In this document: positions 8,704 through 62,454 of the stretch, one piece after another
Position numbering within the stretch: the stretch's first letter is position 1
How the letters are laid out: each line of letters starts with the position of its first letter
NCBI GenBank assembly: GCA_026692865.1
Contig: JAPLNI010000025.1
Location: 186,001 to 250,000, forward strand
Reading direction: 5' to 3'
Source: Planctomycetota bacterium
Lineage (GTDB): Bacteria; Planctomycetota; Planctomycetia; Pirellulales; Pirellulaceae
DNA length: 64,000 bases
The notes under the pieces: model-generated
Told to the model about the DNA's origin: nothing
Seen by the model: the letters and a program-made list of their open reading frames with translations, nothing else
The model's database searches: none
Translations under genes and position numbers: made by a program

Positions 8704-8730
8704 TTCGATAATTCAAGATTCGTTTAACAC

Positions 8731-8880
8731 GTAGTCGAGTCTCTCCGAGAGAGCAGGCTACGTGAGATCGGTTACGTGTTGGAAGTAGGTGTCGTAAGAC
8801 ATCTGAAGACTTCAGGCTGTACGGTTTTTTCCTGTCGAAAACTGAATTCTAACGAATTCAGCTACCCAAAACGAAGACTG
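8731..8880. repeat. hairpin repeat family, copy A (inverted orientation)
   Basis: Three hairpins in a row: GTAG...CTCTCCGAGAG...CTAC (8731-8761), AGGTGTCGTAAGACATCT (8787-8804) and CTGAATTCTAACGAATTCAG (8842-8861) followed by GCTAC. On the opposite strand the order and flanks match copies B, D and E, including a TCCAG...CGTTTT...GGTAGC lead-in (about 8862-8880). Confidence 0.75.
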
Positions 8881-55504: not shown

Positions 55505-56030
55505 TTCGGATTACCTTTTCGTGAACAAAACAATGATGATTTTCTCGAGTATCCACCCGGATCGAAAAAATAGATATTTCAACGGAGAGACTTCCTGCGT
55601 TCGAGAGTAACTCGTCTGATTACTCGGCACAATCATAAAATTCAGCAGAAATTCACTAGTCTTCACGGGGCCCCATGAAGAATGGTTTTTTCATGAAAAA
55701 AGCTTCGCTTGGCAAGCGATTGCAAAGCCGCTATTCGGCCTTAATGGCTAGTAAGTCGCCTTTATTTTGCGCGATTTTTGTTACTAGCTGCTTGCCTTGA
55801 AAAGAATTTTTTGGATTTTTTTCTGACCGGGGAAGCGAAGCGGTTGTCTTGTCAAGCCCTGAGCCGATGGCGCTAGCCACGGGTGACACGCGGCGCTCAA
55901 AGCTGGCGTTGTTGGGCAAATTAGCGGGGGGAACCCGGAGCTAGCGCCCACGGCTCAGGATTTTCAGATTGATATGTTCGTGGGAAGGCCTTATTCGGGA
56001 ATTGGCGGGAGCTCGTTATGCTATGCAGGC
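55505..56030. other. intergenic region before purC
   Basis: The 526 bases contain the promoter side of the PEP-CTERM gene and the repeat at 55858-55960. A palindromic GGGGCCCC (about 55667-55674) and an A/T-rich stretch follow. No gene is supported. Confidence 0.45.
55858..55960. repeat. 103-bp element with inverted ends, left of purC
   Basis: Ends: CCTGAGCCGATGGCGCTAG (55858-55876) and, inverted, CTAGCGCCCACGGCTCAGG (about 55940-55958), matching at 17 of 19 positions. It is homologous over its whole length to the inverted copy at 56969-57070. Confidence 0.85.
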
Positions 56031-56921
56031 ATGAGCAAGCCTATTCTTGAAACTAATCTTCCTTTTCCGCGTCGGCAGGGGAAAGTTCGTGATTGTTACG
56101 ACCTCGGCGAGACACTTCTAATCGTAAGCACCGATCGCATTAGTGCTTTTGATTACATTCTGCCCAACGCGATTCCTGACAAGGGACGCATTCTTACTCA
56201 ATTGAGCAAATTCTGGTTCGAGGTACTTGGAATCGCGAACCATTTGATTTCGACGGAAGTGCCGGCGGAGATTGCCAAACTGGACCCGGATGGGCTCCTT
56301 GAGGGGCGAGTCATGGTGGTTCGGAAGGCGAAAGTTTTGCCTTTTGAATGTGTCGTGCGCGGTTACTTGGAAGGCTCGGGTTGGAAGGACTATCAGCAGA
56401 CGCAATCGGTGTGCGGGATTCCATTGCCGACCGGTCTGAAGCAGTGCGATCGATTGGTGGAATTGGCGGGTGGTCCAATCTTCACGCCCGCAACAAAAGA
56501 AGAATCGGGACACGACGAAAACGTTTCTTTCGAAAGAATGGCCGATGACTTGGGTTTGGAAACGGCCAATGAACTCAAAGCCAAGAGTCTTCTTGTGTAT
56601 CAACGAGGCTCGGAGATTGCTCGAGAAAAGGGGATTATTATTGCCGACACCAAATTCGAATGGGGGCGCTTTGGGGACGAAATCATCTTGATCGATGAAG
56701 TCCTGACGCCGGACAGTTCGCGGTTCTGGTCGCTCGACGACTACCAGCCTGGCCGATCGCAACATTCGTTCGACAAACAGTTTGTGCGGGAGTACCTGCT
56801 CAGTTCTTCTTGGGACCGCCAAAGTCCGCCACCGGCCTTGCCTGAGTCGATTGTGTCGAAGACTCGCGAGAAGTATGTCGAGGCCTATGAACGACTGAGC
56901 GGCCAAAAGTTTGGCTTCTAG
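56031..56921 (+). CDS. purC: phosphoribosylaminoimidazole-succinocarboxamide synthase
   Basis: A 296-residue SAICAR synthetase for purine synthesis. The ATP-grasp-like start is GKVRDCYDLGETLLIVSTDR, followed by ISAFDYILPNAIPDKG and the family motif ECVVRGYLEGSGWKDYQ; IDEVLTPDSSRFW is the later nucleotide-binding motif. ATG at 56031 fits the family; the frame extends upstream but those residues come from repeat-derived DNA. The gene is flanked by inverted copies of one repeat. Confidence 0.95.
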   Translation: MSKPILETNLPFPRRQGKVRDCYDLGETLLIVSTDRISAFDYILPNAIPDKGRILTQLSKFWFEVLGIANHLISTEVPAEIAKLDPDGLLEGRVMVVRKAKVLPFECVVRGYLEGSGWKDYQQTQSVCGIPLPTGLKQCDRLVELAGGPIFTPATKEESGHDENVSFERMADDLGLETANELKAKSLLVYQRGSEIAREKGIIIADTKFEWGRFGDEIILIDEVLTPDSSRFWSLDDYQPGRSQHSFDKQFVREYLLSSSWDRQSPPPALPESIVSKTREKYVEAYERLSGQKFGF

Positions 56922-56933
56922 CGAAGGCGACTA

Positions 56934-56968
56934 CTGAGCCGATGGCGCCAGTGTCGCAAACCTCAAGT
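56934..56968. repeat. partial repeat end next to purC
   Basis: CTGAGCCGATGGCGCCAG at 56934 is one end of the same element family, without a full partner. It directly precedes the full inverted copy. Confidence 0.7.
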
Positions 56969-57070
56969 CCTGAGCCGTGAGCGCTAGCTCCGGATTACCC
57001 CCGCTAATTTGTTCAACATGAAAAACTTTGATCGCCGCGCGTCACCCGTGGCTAGCGCCATCGGCTCAGG
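56969..57070. repeat. 102-bp element with inverted ends, right of purC
   Basis: Ends: CCTGAGCCGTGAGCGCTAG (56969-56987) and CTAGCGCCATCGGCTCAGG (57052-57070). Read on the minus strand it follows the left copy (55858-55960) closely, with a variable middle stretch of about 20 bases. Short frames through it have no independent support. Confidence 0.85.
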
Positions 57071-59662: not shown

Positions 59663-60904
59663 ATGAGACGCCGTGTCGTCGTGACGGGCATGGGCTGCGT
59701 CACGCCCCTTGCTAACCAGGTAGATTTGCTCTGGGAACGCATCCTCGCTGGAAAAAGTGGAATTCACCCTCTTACGATTGTGGATACCACTCATCAGAAG
59801 GTGAAGTTCGGAGGCGACTGCGCGGACTTCGAGCCTGGCGATAGTGTCGAAGCCAAAGAGGTGAAGCGACTCGATCGTTTCGTGCTCTTTGCCATGCACG
59901 CTGCCAAACAGGCTGTGCTTCAAAGCGGAATTGATTTCTCGAAAGAAGACAGTTACCGATGCGGCGCGATTCTCGGCTCGGGTATCGGTGGTTTGAACGA
60001 AATTGAAGAGCAGATGTTTAGGCTCTTTAGTAAAGGTCCCGACCGCGTTAGTCCATTCACCATCCCCAAGATGATGCTCAACGCCGCTGGCGGGAACGTG
60101 GGGATCGCATACGGTCTTCGTGGCCCTAACTTTGCGGTTGCAACTGCGTGCGCTTCATCGAATAACGCGATGGGTGATGCTCTCAAGGCGATCCGCTACG
60201 ATGAAGCGGACGTGATGGTCACTGGGGCTTCGGAAGCTGCAATCACCGCGATCGGTGTTGCCGGTTTTTCAAACATGAAAGCTTTATCGACACGCAACGA
60301 TGCACCCGAGAAAGCTTCGCGACCCTTCGACGCAGACCGCGACGGCTTTGTGCTAAGCGAAGGATGTGGCGTCTTGGTATTCGAGGAACTCGAACACGCG
60401 AAAACTCGTGGGGCCAATATTTTAGCTGAGATTATTGGATACGGCGGCTCCTGCGATGCAGGGCACATCACGGCTCCGGATGCAGAAGGACGCGGAGCAA
60501 GTCGAGCAATGCTAAACGCACTACGAGATGCATCCGTCGATGCCAGTGCGGTCGACTATATCAACGCTCACGGCACCAGTACGCCGCTAGGTGACAAAGC
60601 CGAAACCATCGCAGTGAAGTCGGTCTTTGGAGAATCAGCCCGCAGAGTTGCAATATCCAGCACGAAAGGTGCCCTAGGACACGCGCTGGGTGCAAGCGGA
60701 AGTATCGAGTTGATTCTATCGATTCTTGCTTGCCAGAAGGGAGTTATTCCGCCTACGATCAATCTGGAAACTCCCGATCCAGATTGCGACCTGAATTATA
60801 CTCCGCTCGTTCCAGGTGAGCGTGCCGTGAATATCGCAATGAGCAACAGCTTCGGGTTCGGTGGTCACAACGCAACGATCATCTGTAATCGCTGGAATGG
60901 CTAG
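59663..60904 (+). CDS. fabF: 3-oxoacyl-ACP synthase II
   Basis: A 413-residue FabF condensing enzyme. The catalytic Cys163 is in ATACASSNNAMGDA, and the His residues are in NAHGTSTPLGD and KGALGHALGASGS; NSFGFGGHN is the end loop. It follows acpP by 15 bases, closing the fatty-acid cluster. Confidence 0.97.
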   Translation: MRRRVVVTGMGCVTPLANQVDLLWERILAGKSGIHPLTIVDTTHQKVKFGGDCADFEPGDSVEAKEVKRLDRFVLFAMHAAKQAVLQSGIDFSKEDSYRCGAILGSGIGGLNEIEEQMFRLFSKGPDRVSPFTIPKMMLNAAGGNVGIAYGLRGPNFAVATACASSNNAMGDALKAIRYDEADVMVTGASEAAITAIGVAGFSNMKALSTRNDAPEKASRPFDADRDGFVLSEGCGVLVFEELEHAKTRGANILAEIIGYGGSCDAGHITAPDAEGRGASRAMLNALRDASVDASAVDYINAHGTSTPLGDKAETIAVKSVFGESARRVAISSTKGALGHALGASGSIELILSILACQKGVIPPTINLETPDPDCDLNYTPLVPGERAVNIAMSNSFGFGGHNATIICNRWNG

Positions 60905-60908
60905 TCCG

Positions 60909-61030
60909 ATTCGTCCAGATTGCGTTTTCGGTAGCTGAATTCGTAAGAATTCAAGTGTTGATGGAGATGCCATGGGATAACGAAGTCAGCAGAAGTCTTT
61001 TGACTTCTGCGACGAGCTCATTTGGCTTTT
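60909..61030. repeat. hairpin repeat family, copy E, reaching into the sigma-factor gene
   Basis: TGAATTCGTAAGAATTCA (60936-60953) after GGTAGC, and GCAGAAGTCTTTTGACTTCTGC (60989-61010). The lead-in TTCGTCCAGATTGCGTTTTC matches copies A and B. The right side overlaps the 3' end of the minus-strand sigma gene (stop at 60986-60988). Confidence 0.8.
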
Positions 61031-61606
61031 CATTCGAATCAGATAGTCGGATTTATAGTTCGCAACTTTTTGCTCTGTAAGTCCGAGTTTCTCGGCGATT
61101 ACCTTGTTTGCTAATCGCGATACGAATAACAACTCGATGCACGCAAGCTTGACCCAATCTTGGTTTGATTTCCATTTCCGAATATCGGATGCGAGAAGTT
61201 GCGCAATCTTCTTCTCCTCGTCGCCCCTTCGTTCGCGGGAGCGATGAATACTACTGACCATCCGAGCGCGATCAGGGGATTCAATCGGAATCGCCTGAGA
61301 CGAAGTCTTTTGAAGTCTTCGTAAATGGTCGGTAATTTTGAAACCGCAGATCGCGAATAGATAACTCTCAATTGAGCGAGTCTCGTCAAAATGAGGCAAG
61401 CTGAGATGTAAACCAAGAAACGTATCTTGAACCATATCATCGACTGATGCTGTATCACTCAGCTTTCGCGAAACATACGCATGCAAGCGGCCTTCATACT
61501 TCGCAATAAGAAGTTCCCATGCTCGTTCGTCGCCATCTCGGATACGGCGAACGAGTAGTGTATCTGCTGACAGTAGCCTTGCGGAGAAATGGTCTGAAGT
61601 TGACAT
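60986..61606 (-). CDS. sigma-70 family RNA polymerase sigma factor, ECF-like
   Basis: A 206-residue sigma factor. Region 2 is clear: ELLIAKYEGRLHAYV, then SVDDMVQDTFLGL and SYLFAICGFKITDHLRR. Region 4 is LANKVIAEKLGLTEQKVANY. There is no anti-sigma gene beside it. It follows csrA by 18 bases. The last residues (KSQMSSSQKSKDFC) lie inside a repeat and were probably acquired from it. Confidence 0.85.
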   Translation of the reverse strand: MSTSDHFSARLLSADTLLVRRIRDGDERAWELLIAKYEGRLHAYVSRKLSDTASVDDMVQDTFLGLHLSLPHFDETRSIESYLFAICGFKITDHLRRLQKTSSQAIPIESPDRARMVSSIHRSRERRGDEEKKIAQLLASDIRKWKSNQDWVKLACIELLFVSRLANKVIAEKLGLTEQKVANYKSDYLIRMKSQMSSSQKSKDFC

Positions 61607-61624
61607 TCGAGAGAGCCCACTCCT

Positions 61625-61879
61625 TTAACCTACGTTTCGCTGCAGTGCTCGAATGGAGGATGTGAAATCCTTCATGCTGATGGCGGCTACACGTGATTTT
61701 CGTTCCGGTTTTGGAAGGGGCTTGTCTGAGTCGATTATCAATTCACCACGCATCACCTTCACATCCTTGGGGGCTTCAATTCCGATGGTGACCCGGTTTC
61801 CCACGACCTTGGAAATAACCAAAGTAATGTTCTCACCGATAACCAATCGTTCGCCTTCTTTTCGACTTAATACAAGCAT
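61625..61879 (-). CDS. csrA: carbon storage regulator CsrA
   Basis: An 84-residue CsrA; the core MLVLSRKEGERLVIGENITL and VTIGIEAPKDVKVMRGEL are as in E. coli, followed by a C-terminal addition of about 25 residues (RKSRVAAISMKDFTSSIRAL). It binds GGA-containing RNA and controls translation. The chosen ATG is at 61879, with AAGGAAG about seven bases upstream; GGA also occurs farther up the leader. It probably shares a transcript with the sigma gene. Confidence 0.96.
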   Translation of the reverse strand: MLVLSRKEGERLVIGENITLVISKVVGNRVTIGIEAPKDVKVMRGELIIDSDKPLPKPERKSRVAAISMKDFTSSIRALQRNVG

Positions 61880-62454
61880 TTTAGTACTTCCTTGATTGAT
61901 AGATCCATGTCCAAAACACTGGGACTCGTAGTCCATAGATAGCTAACCTGCTATCTCTCTCACTTAACCATCCATTCATTCTTTGCAGAACACACCGATG
62001 CAAAACCGGTGCCGATTATCTGTTTTTTAGGAATTATTAAAGTTTGACAGAATTGACATATCTTAGGTTCGCTAACAACCGCGATTCAGTTCAATCCGTT
62101 CAGTGATTTTCCAGGGAAAAACAAATATAATCGCTGGAATTACTCAAGTTCTGCCTCGCGCGGACGTTTCAGTGGTTTCAATAAGCTAGCAAAGTTGATT
62201 GCAATAATTGCAATGTGACTGAAAAAACTTCACCGTCATTGTGACAAGTTGATTGCCTCAAAGTGCGAAAAAATGTCTTGGCTTTGCTGCCTAGATCAGT
62301 TCCCTTTTATGACTTCGCGTGTTGGCTCTGCTGAGTAATTCTCAATTCACGATCCAGCACGATAAGCGTGTTGTTCTCGGTTACTCCAATTAAAGGTCAT
62401 TCATTTGACACCTCAGGTCACTCGTCGAATGATTTTTGAAATAAGATATGTCTG
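61880..62454. other. intergenic region between csrA and hemW
   Basis: A 575-base divergent region. It contains the csrA leader with GGA triplets (including AAGGAAG before the start), a short hairpin GATAGCTAACCTGCTATC (about 61937-61954) and an A/T-rich palindrome TTGCAATAATTGCAA (about 62198-62212). No gene or RNA family is recognised. Confidence 0.45.

Follow-up and report, generated by a model that had tools for sequence, protein, structure and literature searches.

How does the gene of a transcriptional regulator come to end inside a repeated palindrome? The question is raised by one locus in the window, a stretch of 64,000 nucleotides from a draft genome (5.55 Mb, 72 contigs) of a planctomycete of the Pirellulaceae, where an ECF-type sigma factor gene converges on fabF and its last codons lie within a hairpin. 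The genes at the locus are:

59663..60904, plus strand: fabF, convergent with the sigma gene (TIGR03150, 596 bits, above the cut-off).
60986..61606, minus strand: ECF-type sigma factor gene, 206 aa (TIGR02937 sigma70-ECF, 51.4 bits, above the cut-off; PF04542).
61625..61879, minus strand: csrA-like gene, upstream of the sigma gene (PF02599, 68.2 bits; below the NCBIfam csrA cut-offs).

The product of the sigma gene also exceeded the cut-off for Sigma70_r2 (PF04542). Its C-terminus, as predicted from the ORF (61606..60986, minus strand), ends ...MKSQMSSSQKSKDFC and is followed by a TGA stop codon. The gap between the two convergent genes was found to contain a REPIN, which matched a covariance model (R1) over model positions 1-83 of 83 with 70.3 bits and an E value of 2.6e-15; the model had been built from the 44 copies nearest the core pattern of the repeat, with the window copy excluded. 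The following parts were distinguished:

60901..60930, plus strand: left outer arm of an IS630-like MITE, from the CTAG that contains the fabF stop codon.
60931..61013, plus strand: REPIN (head-to-head GTAG-REP dimer), 83 nt, located with R1.
60931..60954, plus strand: left REP, with GTAG tag, stem CTGAATTC/GAATTCAA and loop GTAA; outermost pair broken.
60990..61013, minus strand: right REP, with the tag decayed to GTCG, the stem intact and the loop changed from GTAA to AAAA.
60989..61010, no strand assigned: hairpin GCAGAAGTCTTTTGACTTCTGC in the right half of the REPIN, with 9 paired bases and a 4-base loop.

The sigma ORF extends 28 nt into the right half of the REPIN, comprising eight full codons (SQKSKDFC), the TGA and one base of the next codon. 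An earlier note on this DNA had claimed that a repeat supplies the tail and the stop of the sigma factor and that the hairpin encodes SQKSKDFC-type residues, both of which agree with this reading frame. The repeat origin of the tail likewise stood, and the proposed length of about 15 codons did not: the repeat accounts for only 28 nt, as the right outer arm is absent and the match claimed further upstream, between GAAAAGCCAAATGAGCTCGT and GATGAAAAACGGTATTTGTG, is identical at 6 of 20 positions, a level reached by 39% of 18,280 20-mers of the window and attributable to chance. The left REP of the window copy differs from the left consensus at 2 positions over 25 nt and has an intact tag. The right REP differs from its consensus at 6 positions over 25 nt, two of which form a compensated stem pair that occurs in other copies too. 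The sequence GCAGAAGTCTTTTGACTTCTGC occurs once in the window (at up to 3 mismatches) and in none of 100 shuffles, and the hairpin region folds strongly on both strands (z -4.2 and -3.9). A search of 60700-62200 against Rfam gave no match up to E 5.

The REPIN belongs to a family with many members. With the sigma gene end as query, 41 places were recovered in the genome including the query itself (40 scored), the core pattern at up to 2 mismatches gave 121 matches (60 forward, 61 reverse) against 0 for the reversed control, and R1 identified at least 150 non-overlapping copies, counting that of the window. The consensus reads GTAG plus CTGAATTC-GTAA-GAATTCAG, a spacer, and CAGATGTC-TTAC-GACATCTG plus CTAC, with the stem-loops arranged head to head; the GTAG...CTAC tags and the two stems were seen in an alignment of 44 copies chosen for closeness to the core. 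The spacer between the two REPs is weakly conserved in sequence and almost fixed in length, 45 of 64 cores spanning exactly 83 nt (both strands, some copies read twice), and the core survey also contained 5 further left halves with no detectable right half. In both stems 96.9% of cells were paired, compared with 23-40% when the alignment was slid. The covariation score exceeded all 500 shuffles and rests on few pairs, as only 2 of 16 stem pairs changed on both sides, a count reached by 192 of the 500 shuffles. Copies are mainly intergenic: 134 of the 150 listed touch no called gene, and 58 lie between convergent genes compared with 27 between divergent ones (p 0.001), 60 between co-directional genes and 5 at contig or stretch edges, against a background of 13 convergent and 12 divergent among the called gene pairs of the window.

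With stricter filters R1 matched 12 of 60 genomes, including the genome of the window itself and that of the single same-genus relative (G001, 87% complete), which holds 75 copies (76 scored). A cognate RAYT gene was sought at the 5 Y1_Tnp loci of the draft genome, none of which carried the REP motif in roughly 1.5 kb of flanking sequence when up to 5 substitutions were allowed. The best Y1_Tnp (IS200-like) gene of the genome (L061:1222-1941) has ORFs at and beside it with recurring ARGNAPG and GALPLAM stretches, which suggests another repeat family. Elsewhere in the window, a palindrome of the sequence GTAGTCGAGTCTCTCCGAGAGAGCAGGCTAC adjoins another REPIN copy (8782-8865) within 8730-8865, and a 106-nt inverted repeat (55858-55963 and 56965-57070, 87% complementary, 1 kb apart) encloses an ORF called at 55974-56921.

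Many REPINs are enclosed in a longer element (about 145-166 nt, in most cases 150-152) whose ends are of the form CTAGTGCTTTGTCCAGATT...AATCTGGACAAAGCACTAG, and in full copies the outer arms start and finish with CTAG. CTAG was found at 25 of 61 left and 20 of 35 right ends, more often than any other word, although it was also part of the pattern used in the search. When arms were scored against a consensus compiled by hand from the copies seen, with the threshold set at 99% of control stretches, a left arm was detected in 93 of the 150 listed copies, a right arm in 78, both in 57 and neither in 36. The window copy has a left arm (local score 25, reached by 0 of 446 control stretches) and lacks the right one (score 10, matched by 87% of 444 control stretches), so that terminal inverted repeats at both ends are not present in this copy. 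The CTAG at the fabF end, where the left arm starts, is found in G001 as well (L067:331). A related transposase persists as a remnant of 637 nt (L129) that has HTH_32/HTH_29 domains and retains both ends, and a second truncated copy, with one end seen, lies near C57:185469-185957; a 109-aa N-terminal piece used as query returned these two places only. Judged from these ends and remnants, the anatomy of the family is that of an IS630-type element and its MITEs. The same IS630-like ends were also observed around different palindrome pairs (131 nt: L106, L117), around a single hairpin (L131) and in a bare 63-nt form with a short centre devoid of REPs (L110).

Age was considered as the cause of missing arms and rejected, since the REPs of armless copies are no lower in identity (0.922, n=36) than those of both-armed copies (0.898, n=57); this argument is only suggestive because all copies were found through their REPs. 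It suggests that the REPIN spreads or persists without arms.

A survey of gene ends in the 150 listed copies, based on gene calls from a home-made caller, identified seven copies that contain a gene 3' end, five that contain a 5' end, three located inside an ORF, and one that is internal to one ORF and contains the 5' end of another. Five of the seven 3' ends overlap the REPIN by exactly 4 nt, the GTAG tag supplying the TAG stop (genes with Pec_lyase, Lactonase, class I tRNA synthetase, Dockerin and DUF374 domains), and the sixth overlaps by 8 nt and stops at a TGA (PseudoU_synth_2 domain), so that all six have Pfam domains. The sigma gene is the seventh, and it alone reads into the hairpin, with its overlap of 28 nt. 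Three of the other gene ends were checked in G001 by eye, and two of them (tRNA synthetase and dockerin) share the REPIN and the TAG stop, which indicates that such gene ends can persist; for the dockerin gene the tag in G001 is ATAG, and the copy is among the R1 matches. The pectate-lyase-like gene of G001 ends with the TAG of GTAGC followed by an unrelated palindrome and no REPIN (L310:217-240). At all seven 3' ends the arm on the side of the gene is missing (sides read by eye). Little can be read into this pattern: where a gene extends up to the edge of the REPIN there is no space for an arm, and of the 150 copies 57 have no left arm and 72 no right arm in any case.

The same-genus comparison shows what the locus looks like with no such element in place. 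The sigma orthologue of G001 is 86% identical and ends ...KNQIAKGS, compared with ...KSQMSSSQKSKDFC in the window, and the 34 nt at 60986-61019 are all of the sigma 3' end that does not align to the G001 gene. A different tail in a relative lacking the element, which the earlier note had proposed to look for, was thus found in one genome. In the fabF-sigma gap of G001 there is no convincing REPIN copy (best R1 match 6.7 bits, E 1.4, with filters off); a 36-bit R1 match in L096, which appears to be a record of the same locus, is about 2 kb distant and flanks the sigma gene on its opposite side. The gap of G001 instead holds a different repeated palindrome of the AAGTCTCTCCGAGACTTG type (L067:362-433), which at up to 2 mismatches gave 36 matches in G001 and 9 in the genome of the window, the reversed control giving 1 and 0.

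The 3' end of the sigma gene lies in the right half of a REPIN, present in at least 150 copies in the genome, that is very probably a mobile element acquired in the convergent gap. The element would have arrived between fabF and the sigma gene once the lineage had separated from that of the sister species. Its left arm starts at the CTAG that contains the fabF stop codon. As the right arm is missing, the sigma coding sequence abuts the REPIN edge; the right arm and the then-existing sigma 3' end would have been lost or overwritten at this junction. The sigma gene may at first have stopped at the TAG of the GTAG tag, like the five other genes, and neutral point changes could later have shifted the stop into the hairpin. 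The hairpin is still paired and may give the transcripts of one convergent gene, or of both, an ordinary RNA structure at the 3' end, and the new tail of the sigma factor is probably without a specific function. We infer this order of events, there being only one same-genus genome for comparison.

An alternative course, which we consider unlikely, is that the element first landed downstream of an intact stop codon and that a point mutation or small indel then opened the ORF into the REPIN. Such a course would accord with the large majority of copies that touch no called gene (134 of 150), and a comparable extension, that of EnhC in Coxiella, is ascribed in the available part of its description to an indel that joined gene and element (PMC5896051). 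Against it, the IAKGS and TGA of the sister gene are unrecognisable in the stretch from the last alignable coding position to the edge of the REPIN.

Somewhat less likely again is that insertion inside the sigma gene itself removed an original conserved C-terminus. The abutting of the sigma gene on the REPIN and a tail unlike that of the sister would fit with this. The wider set of orthologues argues against it. Matches at 1e-10 were obtained in 89 of 98 genomes, own and G001 included, and the C-termini of 30 orthologues from outside the genus were compared, taken from the 28 best other matches with loci and from two further loci. All 30 orthologues have [FL]PE[LI], mostly as [VI]FPEL, in their last 35 residues (L068-L095, L097, L098), and it is absent from both genus members, the REPIN-less sister included. 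Moreover, the order csrA, sigma gene, convergent fabF was seen in the genus pair only and, by alignment score, at 0 of the 30 other loci (about 1.5 kb of flank each, 3 kb in two), so that the loss can predate the insertion. Since the motif is absent from both members and the gene order is restricted to them, the loss of the ancestral tail probably preceded the REPIN insertion or was independent of it, and probably took place when the sigma gene came to its present location. The claim that insertion replaced the original 3' end is accordingly unsupported: although the tail differs from that of the sister, the sister has no REPIN and lacks the conserved motif too. The present tail of the sigma factor comes from the REPIN, which is not necessarily what removed the ancestral one.

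The reading frame of the tail raises the question of selection. In the sigma frame the right REP has the consensus (C)G TAG CAG ATG TCG TAA GAC ATC TGA, with three stops, and the window copy reads TCG TCG CAG AAG TCA AAA GAC TTC TGC TGA; each of the three consensus stops (TAG, TAA and TGA) is mutated and the TGA that follows ends the sigma gene. Among the 150 right REPs, 79 retain all three stops in the tag frame and the window copy alone retains none. It would be conceivable, although improbable, that the REP was recruited, selection having opened the three stops for a useful tail that perhaps replaced the FPEL-type one: of the four changes other than the compensated stem pair, three abolish one stop apiece while the stem is kept, and no other of the seven gene ends reads into the hairpin. 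However, the single losses among the 150 copies (29, 30 and 28) predict, as the product of their frequencies, about 1.1 triple losses per 150 under independent decay, so that the triple loss is rare but not beyond drift and selection on it is unsupported. In addition, it was the open frame that drew attention to the case, and the tail is known from a single sequence. The narrower version, in which the REP became coding sequence after the genus had lost its FPEL-type tail and gave rise to a functional new C-terminus, is less probable still. That the hairpin is an ordinary bidirectional terminator which resembles the repeat by chance is scarcely credible despite its position between convergent genes and its strong fold (z -4.2 and -3.9), as the full-length R1 match (E 2.6e-15) refutes a chance likeness and no terminator-like site with a T run was found on either strand in 60600-61300.

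With acquisition of a mobile REPIN in the convergent gap as the preferred reading, the locus shows how the end of a regulator gene comes to be formed by an element that the same-genus genome lacks at this place. The commoner outcome is a stop at the GTAG tag, as in five of the seven gene ends in the element, and for the function of the sigma factor the genus-level loss of the FPEL-type tail may matter more than the repeat.

The repeated unit in the REPINs of Bertels and Rainey, dating from 2011, reportedly consists of two oppositely oriented REPs and a spacer. The present element is likewise a unit of two opposed REPs with a spacer, and differs in that no cognate RAYT gene was found beside this REP in the draft genome. 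In the titles and abstract openings of the literature surveyed, no description of this REPIN element was found.

In its overall form the element resembles the GTAG-tagged REPs, of which the consulted portion of Di Nocera et al. 2013 (PMC3733652) describes 24 families, some in Planctomycetes and several in R. baltica; flanking ORFs often stop at the TAG of the tag, and REPs are found at ORF ends. Likened by description, the two share the GTAG tag at the end of the stem, the head-to-head dimers, a location mostly between convergent or co-directional genes, and the use of the tag TAG as an ORF stop, with some copies ending coding regions. In contrast to what that portion describes, the sigma gene reads past a decayed tag and through the whole hairpin. 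The same text reports GTAG-15 dimers of A. variabilis inside long palindromes, the outer palindrome not having been found without REPs. Here, too, the REP dimer often lies within a longer outer inverted repeat, whereas the sequences are different and the arms have a 63-nt copy without a REPIN (L110).

The outer arms compare with IS630/Tc1-mariner elements and their MITEs in their CTAG ends and in the remnant with HTH domains that has the same ends. For this family, insertion at TA with duplication is documented in the accessible text on ISY100 (PMC2170065), and CTAG is given as the preferred IS630 target in a title cited there. Unlike IS630 MITEs, the present MITE encloses a REPIN, and many REPINs lack one or both arms.

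A close counterpart to the sigma tail is QMITE2 at the 3' end of EnhC in Coxiella burnetii, where, according to the part of the account available (PMC5896051), the MITE gives the last 33 residues with the stop directly downstream, and the 3' ends of other C. burnetii genes overlap elements by a few bases. In both cases an element at the 3' end supplies a C-terminus and overlaps of a few bases are seen elsewhere; the element is a different one, and in Coxiella, on that account, an indel separates two strains that share the insertion. The sigma gene is a new example of a known phenomenon, REP-supplied stops and a MITE-extended C-terminus being already in print, and the detail that distinguishes it is the read-through of all three REP stops.
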